From: Phycisphaeraceae bacterium
GTDB taxonomy: Bacteria > Planctomycetota > Phycisphaerae > Phycisphaerales > SM1A02
Direction: 5' to 3'
NCBI GenBank assembly: GCA_015709595.1
Contig: CP054178.1
Span: 1,116,001-1,180,000 of the forward strand
Length of the DNA stretch: 64,000 nucleotides
Shown here piece after piece: positions 25,902 to 32,644 of this stretch (its first letter is position 1; every line of letters begins with the position of its first letter). Below the pieces are notes generated by a model. It ran no database searches and was not told where the DNA came from. It saw only the letters and a list, made by a program, of their open reading frames with translations. Position numbers and translations under genes: made by a program.

Positions 25902-26897
25902 CTATCCGCCGCCCCGCGCCATTCGCGCCCGCCGTCGCGCCACGGCCCGCTTGACCAGTTCATCCACGATCACTCCCGCCAGGATGACCGCTCCGATGAT
26001 GGCGAATTCCACGTTCTGATACCGCGGGAAGACCAGGTTGATGGTGTTGGAGAGCACCACCATCACCGCCGCCCCGATGACCACCCCCGGAATGGACCCT
26101 TCGCCTCCGCGCAGCGAGCACCCCCCCAGCACTGCGGCGGCGATGGCGTAGAGCTCGTAGAAGTTGCCGAAGTCCGAGGGCTGCGCGGCGTTGATGTCCA
26201 GCACGAACAGCATGCCGCCCAACCCCGCCAGGCCGGAGCAGATGGTGTACGCCAGCACGGTCATCCGCTCGGTGCGGATACCGCTGTAGCGGGCCGCCTG
26301 TTCGTTGCGACCGAGGGCCAGCAGGTATCGCCCCCAGATGGTGCATGTCAGAAACACCCACGCCAGCACCCCAACCACCGCCAGCGTGATGAAACTGGCC
26401 GGGAGTTGAAAGACCCCTTCCCCGCCGCCGAAGAGTGGCACGCGCCCGTTGGCGATGGACCGCAGTTCCTTGAAGCCCATGCCGAAGCCCTGCGATTGGT
26501 CGCCCGTCAGCCCGCGCGCCAAGCCCCGGTAGAGCAACAGGCCGCACAGCGTGACCACGAAGGGTTGCAGCTTCAGCCGCGTCACCAGCAGGCCGTGCGT
26601 CATGCCGATGAGCAGCGACATGCCCAGCACCGTCGGCACCGCGGCGCCGACGGGCCAGCCCTGTTTCGTCAACAGCCACGGCAGCAGCACGCCCACGAGG
26701 CAGACCATCGAACCGATGGAGAGGTCGATCCCGCCCGTGATGATGACGAACGCCGCCCCGATGGCGAGGATGCCGAACAGCGACGTGCGGTGCACCAGGT
26801 TCTCGACGTTGCCCATCAGGAGAAAGCGATCGCTCGAGATCGCCGTGAACAGGCAGATCGCGATCAACAGTCCCAGGATGCCGAGAATCTTCTTCAT
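25902..26897 (-). CDS. Sugar ABC transporter permease (RbsC-like)
   Basis: 331 residues, about eight to nine membrane segments. Family landmarks: FVIITGGIDLSIGSMVCLVG (about 51-70), RNEQAARYSGIRTERMTVLA (about 200-219), and the C-terminal AAVLGGCSLRGGEGSIPGVV (about 256-275). It forms the inner-membrane channel of a ribose/xylose/fucose-type importer. It follows the ATPase gene after 12 bases and ends the leftward operon SDR - binding protein - ATPase - permease. Confidence 0.92.
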   Translation of the reverse strand: MKKILGILGLLIAICLFTAISSDRFLLMGNVENLVHRTSLFGILAIGAAFVIITGGIDLSIGSMVCLVGVLLPWLLTKQGWPVGAAVPTVLGMSLLIGMTHGLLVTRLKLQPFVVTLCGLLLYRGLARGLTGDQSQGFGMGFKELRSIANGRVPLFGGGEGVFQLPASFITLAVVGVLAWVFLTCTIWGRYLLALGRNEQAARYSGIRTERMTVLAYTICSGLAGLGGMLFVLDINAAQPSDFGNFYELYAIAAAVLGGCSLRGGEGSIPGVVIGAAVMVVLSNTINLVFPRYQNVEFAIIGAVILAGVIVDELVKRAVARRRARMARGGG

Positions 26898-26909: not shown

Positions 26910-28421
26910 CTACGCCGCCTTCGCCTGGCCTGTCATCAGCCCGATCACCGCCTGCTCCGAGAGTTCCCCGCGCGACAATTCACCCGTGATTCGCCCCTCG
27001 TGCATCACCAGGGCGCGGTCGGACATGCTGAGAACCTCCTCCATTTCGCTGGAGGCGAAGAGAATCGCCACGCCGCGCGCCGCCAGTTCCTCCATGAGTC
27101 GGTAGATCTCCTGCTTCGCCCCCACGTCGATGCCGCGCGTCGGCTCATCCAGCAGCAGCACGCGCGGGTTCATCTGCAGCCACTTGCCCAGCACGATCTT
27201 CTGCTGATTGCCGCCGGAAAGATACTGCGCCTGTTGCCGCTGGTGCGGCGTGCGGATGGACAGGATGCGGATCATCTCGCCGCATTGCCTGAGCGCTGAG
27301 GCCCGGTTGAGAAACCCGCCCGGATGGCAATCGCGCCGCAGCGAGGCCAGGGCGAGGTTGTCGCGCACGCTCATCTCCAGGATCAGCCCCGCCTGCTTGC
27401 GATCCTCCGGCGCCAGTCCCAGCCCGGCCTGAATCGCCGCCAGCGGGTGCGAAAACGGCGGCGCGGCTTCACCCGCGCCGACCTGGACCATCCCCCCCAC
27501 GGCGGGGGTGATGCCGAAGATCGTCTCCAGCAGTTCCGTCCGCCCAGCCCCGACCAGACCGGCCAGCCCGACGATCTCGCCCGCACGAAGGTCGAACGAC
27601 ACGGGGCGCGCGGGATGCGCGGGCGTGCGCAGGTCGCGCACGCGCAGCGCGGGCCCGCCCGGCGTTCCGGGAGCGTGGTTGTAGATCTGCGACACGTCGC
27701 GCCCCACCATCAGACGCACCATGGCGTCGTGCGTGATCTCGCTCCGGCCCAGTTCACCCGCGTTGCGTCCGTCGCGCAGCACGACGACGCGATCGGCCAG
27801 TTCGGTGACTTCGCCGAGCCGGTGGGAGATGTAGATCACGCCCACGCCCCGCGCCTTCAGGCCGCGCACCACGCCGAAGAGCGTGAGCGCCTCGTGCTGC
27901 GTGAGCGACGAGGTCGGCTCATCCATGATGATGATCCTCGCATGCGTGGAGAGCGCCTTGGCGATCTCCACCATCTGCCTTCGACCGATCGACAGGGCCC
28001 CTGCGATGGTGCGCGGCGGAACGTCCAGCCCCACCGCTTGAAGCCACGTCGCCGCCTCCGATTCCAGCCGTCTCCGGTCGATCCATCCCGGCGCCTTGCG
28101 CGGCTCGCGTCCGAGGAAGATATTGGCCGCCACGTCCAGATTGTCGGCGAGGTTGAGTTCCTGGTGAATCAGCGCGATGCCGCGTTCGATGGCGTGACGC
28201 GGGCCTTCCAGCCGAAGGGGCTCATCGTCCAGCACCAGTTCACCGGCGTCGGGCGTGAGCACGCCGGCGAGGATCTTCATCAGCGTGCTTTTGCCCGCGC
28301 CGTTTTCACCGACGATGGCCAGCACCTCGCCGCGCCCGAGCGACAGCGACACCTCCTGCAGCGCGCGCACACCGGGGAACTGCTTGGAGACGGAGCGAAC
28401 GTGCAGCATGTCGGATCGCAC
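26910..28421 (-). CDS. Sugar ABC transporter ATPase, tandem-domain (RbsA/XylG-like)
   Basis: 503 residues with two ATPase domains, normal for RbsA. The first has Walker [10 protein letters not shown] (about 36-44), signature [16 protein letters not shown] and Walker [12 protein letters not shown]; the second has the degenerate P-loop [10 protein letters not shown], signature [16 protein letters not shown] and Walker [15 protein letters not shown]. Sits on the cytoplasmic face of the importer. GTG start at 28421 is ten bases after the binding-protein stop; an ATG at 28409 is an alternative. Confidence 0.92.
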
Positions 28422-28431
28422 AAGGCGCCGG

Positions 28432-29577
28432 TCACTTCGCCTTCAGGCGGCCGACCTTGTCCAGCGCCTCCATGATGAGCGGCGGGTTGTACTCGAACAG
28501 CCCCACCATCGCCGCCAGGTCCGGGTTGCGGGTGATGGCGTCCTCGGCGTTGGCCTTGGCCTTGGCCCGGTCGAAGTTGTCAGTCATGGTGCCGAGAATC
28601 TCGAATCGCCCGTCATCGCTGCGGATGATCTGATCCACCGGGTCGTTGCGCGACGGGTCGGGCTCGCGGCCCAGCAGCCCGTCGATGCAGCCCTGGCGTC
28701 GGCGCTTGGCGTTGTCCTGATCGAGGCGTCCGATGAAGATCATCACCTTGCCGCCGTCGGGAATCGCCTGCCGCGTCATCTTCCCGCACAGGTAGCCCGC
28801 GGTGTAGTTGTCCATGCCGATGTACACGAGACGATCGCTGTTGGGCGCGTCGGAATCGTGCGTGATGAGGGGTTTCTTCGAGGCCGCGTTGTTGAGCACG
28901 TCGCCCTGGTTGTCGGGGTTGATGGGGCTGATGGCGATGCCGTCGGTCCCGCGCGAGAGCAGATCCTCGATTTTGCGCGTCTGATCGGTGATGCCGCTGG
29001 GCATGATGACGGTGACTTCGACGTTGTAGTCCTTGCCCGCCTGCTCGGCGCCGGCCTTGGCGATGGTCCAGAAGTCGGCGACGCCGTTGGTGACGAAGGC
29101 GAAGCGCGGCCTGGCGCCGCCGGACGATCCGCCCCCCGCGCCGCCCGAGGCCGAGCCGCTCCCGGTCAGTTTGGCGTTGAGATCCTGCTCGAACTCGTCT
29201 ACGTCCACGATCTCGGCGCCGAAGAACCTGTCGCCGCCGCCGAACTTCATGACCACGCGCGCGGGGATGTCGATGAAGCCGTTGGCGGGAATGACGCTCC
29301 TGTTGCCCTTGTGGATCTCGTTGAGCACCTCGATGGAGCGGTAGCCGTACATGTACGGGTTCTGCACCACGGTTCCGACGACGGTTTCGTCGCGGATGCC
29401 CTGAAGCACCATGCGGTTCTCATCGAAGGCGACGACCTTGACGGGCGGGCGCGACGATCCCCCGCCGGTCGAGGCGCCGCCGCCCGATGAATCCCCGCTT
29501 CCTCCGCCGTTGCACCCGGCCAGTCCCAGCGCCGCGCCAATCGCCAGCAGCACGCCCAGTCGCACGATGTCCCGCAT
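28432..29577 (-). CDS. Sugar-binding lipoprotein of the ABC importer with circularly permuted domain order
   Basis: 381 residues. Signal peptide and lipobox LGLAGC (Cys22), then a Gly/Ser linker. Residues ~46-138 ([20 protein letters not shown] through [15 protein letters not shown] and [10 protein letters not shown]) are what normally forms the C-terminal part of a type-I (RbsB-like) binding protein. A second Gly/Ser linker (139-155) follows, then ~157-381 is the normal N-terminal part: [54 protein letters not shown], and the protein stops at [11 protein letters not shown], exactly where VKVVAFDE would usually continue. So the chain is permuted at the strand entering the last hinge crossing. 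One uninterrupted frame; AGGAG before the ATG at 29577. It captures a sugar in the periplasm; the ligand is unknown. Confidence 0.88.
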
Positions 29578-30559: not shown

Positions 30560-32644
30560 ATGCGACGCATCACCCACGCGCTGGCCGTCCCCGCCCTGCT
30601 CCTCGCCCCGTGGGTGACGATGTCGGCGCCTCTCGACCACGCCGCCTCCAGCAACACCGGCGCCTCCGCACACGAAACGCAACCCGTGACAGACGACGAC
30701 CACATGCAGTGGTGGCGCGAAGCCCGCTTCGGACTGTTCATTCACTGGGGGCTGTACGCGATTCCCGCCGGGGAGTGGGGCGCGGCCCGCTACCACGGCG
30801 AGTGGATCATGCACACGGCGCAGATTCCCGTCGAGCAGTACGAGCAGTTCGTCCCCCAGTTCAACCCCGTCCAGTTCGACGCCGACGAGTGGTGCCGCAT
30901 CGCCAGGGACGCGGGGATGAAGTACATCGTCATCACCAGCAAGCATCATGACGGCTTCGCGCTCTTCGACTCGAAGGTGTCGGACTACGACATCATGGCC
31001 ACGCCCTTCCGGCGCGACATCATGAAGGAGCTGGCCGACGCCTGCCGCCGGCATGGGCTGACCATCTGCTGGTACCACTCCATCATGGACTGGCATCACC
31101 CGGACTACCTGCCCCGCCGGGGGTGGGAGCAGCGCTCCGCCGAAGGCGCCGACTTCACCCGCTTCCGCGAGTACCTGCACAAGCAGGTGGAGGAGCTGCT
31201 CGCCAACTACGGCCATATCGGCGTCATGTGGTTCGACGGCGAATGGGAGAACACGTGGACGCACGAGCACGGCGTGGCGCTCTACGAGCACGTCAAGCGC
31301 ATCTCCCCCGCCACCATCGTCAACAACCGCGTCGACAAGGGACGCGCCGGCATGGCGGGTATGACCACCGACCCCGGCAAGTACAAGGGCGAGTTCGGCA
31401 CGCCCGAGCAGGAAATCCCCGAAACCGGATTCCCCGGCGTCGATTGGGAAACCTGCATGACCATGAACGACCACTGGGGGTACAACAAGCACGATCACAA
31501 CTGGAAGACCAGCGAAGACCTCATCCGCAAACTCGTGGACATCGCTTCCAAGGGGGGCAACTTTCTGCTCAACGTCGGCCCCAAGGCCGATGGCACGTTC
31601 CCGCAGGAATCCATCGACCGGCTGCGCGACATGGGCGCGTGGATGAGAATCAACGGCGAGTCGATCCACGGCACGACCGCCACGCCCTTTCAGCACCTGG
31701 ACTGGGGCCGCTGCACGGTCAAGCATAACGGCGACGCCGCCACGCTCTACCTGCACGTCTTCGACTGGCCCGGGAACGGCCGGCTCATCGTGCCGGGGCT
31801 GGGCAACGAGGTGCGCCGCGCCCGGCTTCTTGCCGCCCCGGACAGTGAACTGAAGGTGGCCCGCGCGGAGTCGGACGTGGTGATCTCGCTGCCCGCCGCC
31901 GCCCCGGACGCCATCTGCACCACGATCGCGCTGGAGATCATCGGCGCGCCGGTGGTGTACGACCCGCCCACCATCACCGCGCCGGGACCGATCTTCGTGC
32001 GGCCCATGCCGGTGAACATGACGGCCGGTTCGCCGGAACTGGAAATTCGCTACACGCGCGACGGTTCGACGCCGGACGCCTCGTCGCCCCGGTTCGAGAA
32101 GCCCCTGCTGATCGACGCCTCCACGACGATCAAGGCCCGCACGTTCCATCGCGGCAAGCCCGTTTCCGGCGTCACGGAGCGCACCTTCGAGCGGGCCACG
32201 CCCCGCGCGGCCGTTCCCGTCGGACGCACCGCACCGGGCCTGAAACGCGAGCGGTTCCAGGGCGATTGGGATCGCCTGCCCAACTTTTCGGGCCTGCCCG
32301 TCGTGAACGCCGACACGGTCCCCTCGGTGTCGCTGCCGCGCGGCGGCGCGGGCGAGCGCGCGGGATACCGCTTCACCGGCTACATCAGCGTGCCGGAAGA
32401 CGACGTCTACGAGTTCGCCCTTGTTTCGGACGACGGCTCACGACTCACCATCGGCGACTGGGTGCTGGATAACGACGGACTGCATGGCGTGCTGGAACGC
32501 CGGGGCACGGTGGCGCTGGCACAGGGCGCGCATCGAATCACCGTTGAGTGGTTCAACAAGACGGGGGGCGAGGAACTTGTCCTTCGCTGGGCGCCGCTTG
32601 GGGGGTCGCTGAAGGACGTCCCCGCCACCGCCCTGTCTCATTGA
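30560..32644 (+). CDS. Exported alpha-L-fucosidase (GH29) with C-terminal FN3-like and PA14-like modules
   Basis: 694 residues with signal peptide (about 1-24). GH29 catalytic domain, ~45-400: WWREARFGLFIHWGLYAIPA, YIVITSKHHDGFALFDS (about 124-140), and the nucleophile Asp226 in VMWFDGEWE; NFLLNVGPKADGTF closes the barrel. Residues ~470-550 resemble the chitobiase-C/FN3_7 type module (LEIRYTRDGSTPDASSPRFE). Residues ~570-694 look like a PA14 domain (YRFTGYISVPEDDVYEFALV, VSDDGSRLTIGDW), probably carbohydrate binding. It releases L-fucose from polysaccharides outside the cytoplasm. GGAGG lies about eight bases before the ATG. It is divergent from the sugar-importer operon. Confidence 0.93.
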   Translation: MRRITHALAVPALLLAPWVTMSAPLDHAASSNTGASAHETQPVTDDDHMQWWREARFGLFIHWGLYAIPAGEWGAARYHGEWIMHTAQIPVEQYEQFVPQFNPVQFDADEWCRIARDAGMKYIVITSKHHDGFALFDSKVSDYDIMATPFRRDIMKELADACRRHGLTICWYHSIMDWHHPDYLPRRGWEQRSAEGADFTRFREYLHKQVEELLANYGHIGVMWFDGEWENTWTHEHGVALYEHVKRISPATIVNNRVDKGRAGMAGMTTDPGKYKGEFGTPEQEIPETGFPGVDWETCMTMNDHWGYNKHDHNWKTSEDLIRKLVDIASKGGNFLLNVGPKADGTFPQESIDRLRDMGAWMRINGESIHGTTATPFQHLDWGRCTVKHNGDAATLYLHVFDWPGNGRLIVPGLGNEVRRARLLAAPDSELKVARAESDVVISLPAAAPDAICTTIALEIIGAPVVYDPPTITAPGPIFVRPMPVNMTAGSPELEIRYTRDGSTPDASSPRFEKPLLIDASTTIKARTFHRGKPVSGVTERTFERATPRAAVPVGRTAPGLKRERFQGDWDRLPNFSGLPVVNADTVPSVSLPRGGAGERAGYRFTGYISVPEDDVYEFALVSDDGSRLTIGDWVLDNDGLHGVLERRGTVALAQGAHRITVEWFNKTGGEELVLRWAPLGGSLKDVPATALSH

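Follow-up and report, generated by a model that had tools for sequence, protein, structure and literature searches.

A natural circular permutation in a CUT2-type sugar-binding lipoprotein of a Phycisphaeraceae bacterium

Natural circular permutations of proteins are usually regarded as rare single events. The binding-protein gene of a sugar importer in a Phycisphaeraceae bacterium raises the question of whether a chain that begins with its usual C-terminal segment is a genuine permutant able to fold and work, or the product of damage. The gene, which encodes a protein termed P0001 here, lies in a stretch of 64,000 nucleotides (the window) covering positions 1,116,001 to 1,180,000 of contig CP054178.1 (GCA_015709595.1). 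P0001 has the segments of a type I (CUT2, RbsB/tmGBP-like) solute-binding protein in an exactly circularly permuted order. A first-pass annotation of the same DNA had proposed a natural permutation rather than damage, a reading that the relatives, the structure prediction and the tree described below all favour.

The reading frame is free of stops from the ATG at 29577 to the stop codon at 28434-28432 on the minus strand and specifies 381 residues. The order of the blocks, the Gly/Ser linkers and the unbroken frame are as first annotated, with limits that agree to within a codon (Table 1). Cys22 was assigned as the lipid attachment site with what we take to be the usual lipobox pattern. The relocated C block runs from VKVVAFDE to NAKLT (29445-29164). 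Its end had been given as IPARVV at 29164; the position holds and marks the end of the original C-terminal helix, but the label was loose, since IPARVV itself ends at 29251. The strand-helix units that normally come last, together with the C-terminal helix, have been moved to the front; a Gly/Ser linker now connects the old ends, and the new chain ends lie in a helix-to-strand loop. The rest of the chain, in which N1 and N2 are contiguous, ends at GRLKAK, in the loop from which canonical relatives run on into VKVVAFDE. The Pfam profile PF13407 recognizes the protein at 148.9 bits (cut-off 35.1) as two separate stretches, the better of which aligns residues 161-377 with profile positions 3-207 of 258. 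At 29209-29247, about 12 extra residues precede the original C-terminal helix; this insert is characteristic of the group of permuted relatives to which P0001 belongs and is missing from a second such group and from the canonical relatives L110-L112.

Table 1. Features of the permuted gene and its operon in the window.
Feature	Coordinates	Strand	Remarks
Circularly permuted CUT2-type sugar-binding lipoprotein P0001, 381 aa	28432..29577	-	Order C-N1-N2
Signal peptide and lipobox LAGC (Cys22), residues 1-22	29512..29577	-	Sequence, pattern scan
Linker 1, Gly/Ser rich, residues 23-44	29446..29511	-	Sequence; pLDDT <50 at residues 22-40
Relocated C block, residues 45-138, strand VKVVAFDE to original C-terminal helix	29164..29445	-	
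Linker 2, Gly/Ser rich, old C-terminus to old N-terminus, residues 139-156	29110..29163	-	pLDDT <50 at 140-153
N block (N1 and N2), residues 157-381, ends GRLKAK	28435..29109	-	
N1-N2 loop, residues 307-321, intact in the window protein	28615..28659	-	Homologous to the opening site of 5er3 and 18 distinct type B relatives
Sugar importer ATPase, two ABC domains	26910..28421	-	PF00005, two stretches
Importer permease, RbsC-type	25902..26897	-	PF02653
Short-chain dehydrogenase (SDR), upstream of P0001	29610..30473	-	Also upstream of some canonical relatives

That the chain stops exactly where VKVVAFDE usually continues, as had been claimed, is evident from relatives with the canonical order N1-N2-C. 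In 12 of these, the C block comes immediately after a match to about q145-378 (numbering of the window protein as query); at G006:C28, for example, q145-378 lies at 86953-87651 and q46-112 directly after it, at 87652-87855. Because q145-378 runs straight into q46-112 in such relatives, the break point is exact. Three canonical planctomycete proteins (L110, L111 and L112) are close to P0001, with 65-70% identity over the N block and 65-73% over the C block; their original C- and N-termini are free, whereas those of the window protein are joined by a linker. The same fold elements in canonical order are found in tmGBP of Thermotoga maritima (2h3h, 3c6q; 30-32% identity over the N block) and in the E. 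coli ribose-binding protein (2dri; 22-23%).

The order C-N1-N2, termed type A, occurs in 11 other genomes at 68 to 45% identity. The nearest is G044, from another family within the same taxonomic order, which matches P0001 colinearly over q12-378 with 68% identity (E 1.7e-164), a similarity far beyond chance. Its locus has the permuted order with different linkers, and its downstream ATPase and permease are 65% and 79% identical to those of the window. Ten further type A proteins came from a scan of named genomes, four of them (L106-L109) at 63-64% identity over the best segment and six (L117, L118, L123, L124, L172 and L181) at 45-48%; the record titles of all but L118 are those of planctomycetes. 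For a census of block order, the blocks were defined as residues 45-112 (C), 155-306 (N1) and 322-379 (N2). Among 201 classified ORFs, 163 have the order N1-N2-C, 19 have N2-C-N1 (type B) and 13 have C-N1-N2, while six were dropped for a missing block; 176 of the remaining 195 are distinct proteins (146 canonical, 18 type B and 12 type A), a difference due in part to genes that stand under two locus identifiers. These counts are not frequencies, because only the best 80 of the 331 relatives in the scan were retained.

Genomes G000-G1049, sampled from the window's relatives and from its order, phylum and class, contain a full-length type A match only in G000 and G044 among the matches listed; in most of these samples mostly four candidates were scored per genome at thresholds of 1e-15 or 1e-20, so weaker relatives may have escaped. 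A sample of 288 genomes from the phylum to which G1063 belongs yielded eight matches at 1e-30, and in none of them did the query range fit a permuted order. Several family members (L121, L127, L147, L149, L150, L154, L158 and L180) lie on contigs labelled Akkermansia muciniphila (seven) or Klebsiella pneumoniae (L158), titles that we suspect to be those of mislabelled metagenome bins.

A second site of opening is represented in the PDB. The best match of P0001 there by sequence (1.4e-67) and also by fold is 5er3 (released in 2015), the solute-binding protein of a sugar ABC transporter from Rhodopirellula baltica SH 1 and a permuted type I protein of the same family. It aligns with the window protein as q323-372 followed by q45-306, which is the type B order, and is opened one strand-helix-strand-helix stretch earlier than P0001, at a site that in the window protein lies between REP and FEILGT. 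The type B proteins in the census are L054-L059, L113, L114, L128, L186-L193 and L201; in four of them (L189, L190, L192 and L193), 46-99 residues past the last block form an unexplained C-terminal extension. On tmGBP chains, the type A opening falls near residue 210 and the type B opening near 150. Both loops lead from helix to strand in the models of P0001 and L112, and from the general architecture of RbsB-like proteins we take both to belong to the C-lobe.

The first-pass annotation knew of no described natural case in this transporter family, a statement that does not stand. Besides 5er3, TpMglB-2 (Tp0684) of Treponema pallidum was published by Brautigam et al. in 2016 (PMC4990184) as a circularly permuted type I fold, named Type Ic or Cluster Bc. 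According to that paper, TpMglB-2 binds glucose and changes conformation, and its permuted topology might be an adaptation to anchoring. Like P0001, TpMglB-2 as described there is a natural permutant: a type I sugar-binding protein that serves an ABC importer and carries a lipid anchor. Unlike P0001, it is opened in the N-lobe, with the first three strands at the chain end and a fourth hinge crossing (PMC4990184); the strand order of its C-lobe is canonical, whereas P0001 is opened in that lobe. In P0001 the first three N-lobe strands have not moved to the C-terminus, which places it outside Type Ic / Cluster Bc as defined in that paper, and its order is not the N2-C-N1 of type B. In the open-licence literature, PMC4990184 was the one case of natural permutation in type I sugar-binding proteins among the matches listed, and a search of titles by entry name found no paper about 5er3. 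Neither the window's breakpoint nor its repeated origin was found in that literature, a term search of PMC12667903 included, a weak absence given that most subscription journals lie outside it. Natural permutation of type I sugar-binding proteins is thus already known; the window's breakpoint and the repeated opening of two C-lobe loops appear to be new, in that they were not found in the literature searched.

Structure prediction, one of the checks that had been suggested for this protein, yielded one confident fold. AlphaFold2, given aligned sequences of 11 distinct type A proteins (all 12 except G044), modelled mature P0001 with a mean pLDDT of 87.5 and a pTM of 0.84, values to be read with the caveat that the program may already know the fold family from the PDB. 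Values below 50 are confined to mature residues 1-19 and 119-132, which are the two linkers. Most of the moved block exceeds 90 with the chain modelled alone, and a ten-residue stretch inside it (mature residues 91-100) averages 71. The model of the canonical control L112, built from 11 sequences, reached a pLDDT of 90.5 and a pTM of 0.86. Both models contain an identical list of elements, cyclically shifted, with all strand-helix units of both lobes present: the first strand of P0001 corresponds to E232-236 of L112 and its last helix to H215-225, and canonical strands 1-8 keep their order in a chain that begins with strand 9. Accordingly shifted alignments are seen with 3c6q, which follows the L112 control from end to end (Z 35.0, 289 residues) and the P0001 model in sequential alignment only from 135 on (135-359; Z 17.3, 206 residues). 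The top fold match of the P0001 model is the permuted 5er3 (VIA-align Z 23.8, 246 residues, 3.2 A, model residues 20-288), with a looser superposition in Foldseek (TM 0.60/0.67, rmsd 5.5 A); TpMglB-2 was not among the 50 best matches listed in the VIA-align search. Because those 246 residues within 20-288 align to 5er3, most of the moved block and of N1 must lie in one frame, and in the model the moved block probably sits in its usual place in the fold. When the canonical block order was restored in silico, the match to 2qvc rose from 107.8 to 126.0 bits.

The importer operon had been described as intact, and its dehydrogenase, ATPase and permease genes are all recognizable (Table 1). The ATPase start is listed at a GTG (28421), and an ATG at 28409 may be the true start. 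P0001 is the sole binding protein of the operon and very probably serves as the importer's receptor; for the same reason it would be expected to bind a monosaccharide or close relative in its cleft and to deliver it to the ATPase-permease pair. Four residues of the moved block (F51, D52, E53 and Q72) are invariant among 11 type A proteins, and their counterparts, in VVAFDE and VVQNPY, are invariant among 11 canonical proteins. By analogy, D52 and Q72 would correspond to D236 and N256 of EcMglB, which Table 2 of PMC4990184 gives as glucose contacts. No close canonical paralogue was found in G000 or G044 (one match each) or in the other 10 type A genomes, where extra matches reach only 26-30% identity (G1054, G1055, G1056 and G1059); this falls short of proof, because several type A genomes are incomplete metagenome bins.

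Permuted genes also keep company with the transporter elsewhere. Where more than 1.5 kb of downstream sequence is present, an ATPase gene follows at 9 of 9 type A loci, in 16 of 18 type B rows (15 of 17 genes once L055 and L100 are counted as a single gene; the exceptions are L186 and L187) and in 51 of 72 canonical rows. The SDR gene is found upstream in 54 of 142 canonical and 2 of 18 type B rows with more than 1 kb upstream, and in none of 10 other type A ORF rows with that much sequence (nine genomes, G044 counted twice); the window's own row has too little upstream room to be counted, yet the SDR is present there. Divergent from the operon, at 30560-32644 on the plus strand, lies a gene for an alpha-L-fucosidase (PF01120) that also has PA14 and chitobiase-like C-terminal domains; its proximity gives no more than a hint to the transported sugar.

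Several other readings of the locus can be weighed against these data. Both junctions fall in GC-rich, low-complexity linker sequence, where a misjoin of a truly canonical gene might be expected, but the same order recurs in eleven other assemblies, most with different linkers, and the window's genome is a single contig of 3.84 Mb that is 99.11% complete. Because the order is common to 12 distinct proteins, each from a different assembly, an assembly artefact was rejected, and its probability is practically nil. It is also improbable, though less so, that the moved block swaps between two molecules or that the gene is decaying. Flexible linkers would permit swapping, and a single-chain prediction is compatible with a dimer; against this, the moved block is predicted with high confidence in a chain modelled alone. 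The invariance of the four residues of the moved block and of their canonical counterparts also speaks against this reading, as does the intact frame in all 12 distinct proteins.

A further alternative, that the front block was captured from another paralogue, was raised by Brautigam et al. for TpMglB-2, whose moved part is poorly conserved (PMC4990184). For P0001 such a chimera is very improbable. The tree of the N part places the window protein with the type A group and canonical L110 and L111 (support 100), and in the tree of the C block, which has 70 columns and is poorly resolved, the nearest rows are still G044 and canonical L111. Block-wise trees, the weak C-block tree included, therefore do not favour a chimera.

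The preferred reading, which we consider highly likely as a whole, is that P0001 belongs to the CUT2-type (type I / cluster B) sugar-binding lipoproteins and was circularly permuted in nature, keeping a normal fold and a working role as receptor, with a relocated anchor and an origin by duplication. How often such permutants arose was addressed with a tree of 85 proteins, built from 285 columns with the blocks placed in one common order and with the 146 canonical proteins thinned to 55 by similarity (cut 74% identity). On this tree, type A requires two changes of order and type B four, six in total, and starred branches alone force two and three, respectively; these counts do not orient gain against loss. 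The two changes for type A recur in trees from the N part only and the C block only, which are quick trees, the latter on its 70 columns. In AU tests, a single type A clade was rejected at p 6.7e-6 and a single clade of all type B proteins at p 1.4e-7, both groups having been fixed by block order before the tree was inspected. Type B without L113, L114 and L128, a subset picked from the tree, was rejected as one clade at p 0.013. From these rejections and the changes on the tree, at least four origins are likely and six are possible. The order of P0001, for which the first-pass annotation had recommended a search of Phycisphaerae genomes, is present in 11 other genomes and probably arose more than once.

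An alternative history has one early permutation of each kind, with later transfer and reversion to the canonical order in place of several independent origins. It draws on the lack of orientation in the counts, on the modest p value for the tree-chosen type B subset, and on the second type A group, whose link to canonical L092 is an unstarred branch (93/87). The two clade tests on predefined groups contradict it, however, as does the sister relationship of the window's type A group to canonical L110 and L111 (100/100), and each return would require a second exact permutation at identical residues. This history is unlikely, although less so than the alternatives weighed above.

For the permutant itself, the chain would adopt the usual two-lobed fold that closes on a sugar, the moved block bringing D52 and Q72 back into the cleft, and the receptor would capture its sugar and hand it to the cognate ATPase-permease pair. 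The lipid anchor, which in canonical relatives appears to precede the first strand of the N-lobe, would in types A and B be attached to the C-lobe; in P0001 it would hang from the far end of that lobe. A single permease gene is visible in the operon, so a homodimeric channel is probable and docking from either side would be tolerated; on such a symmetric dimer, docking would be possible whichever lobe lies closer to the receptor's anchor. That the anchor switch has functional weight is a guess, and neutral drift explains the block order equally well. A broader proposal is that this planctomycete and verrucomicrobial family underwent at least four and probably six permutations, always at two C-lobe loops and each moving the anchor from the N-lobe to the C-lobe, as a recurrent adaptation enabled by the two-fold symmetric permease; this we put forward tentatively, as more doubtful than probable.

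Repeated permutation at the same loops, with canonical sisters 65-70% identical and the same transporter adjoining, makes the driver directly testable, be it the ease of such mutations or an advantage such as a shifted position of the anchor. The family also carries a warning for profile-based annotation, as PF13407 reads the permuted protein in two stretches, and is a source of natural templates for permuted sugar biosensors.

The permuted gene may have originated by tandem duplication and in-frame fusion, after which the leading N part and the trailing C block would have been lost; linker 2 would in that case be a remnant of the lipoprotein linker of the second copy. Linker 2 resembles the canonical lipoprotein linker preceding N1, which has a median length of 19 residues and a range of 5-330 (119 of the 163 canonical ORFs, those with a lipobox pattern). 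None of the 201 classified ORFs encodes a fused N-C-N-C protein. Tandem canonical copies were seen at one locus only within the same set: at L060:1798-4264, two canonical binding-protein genes lie in tandem, a possible precursor state of a permutation.
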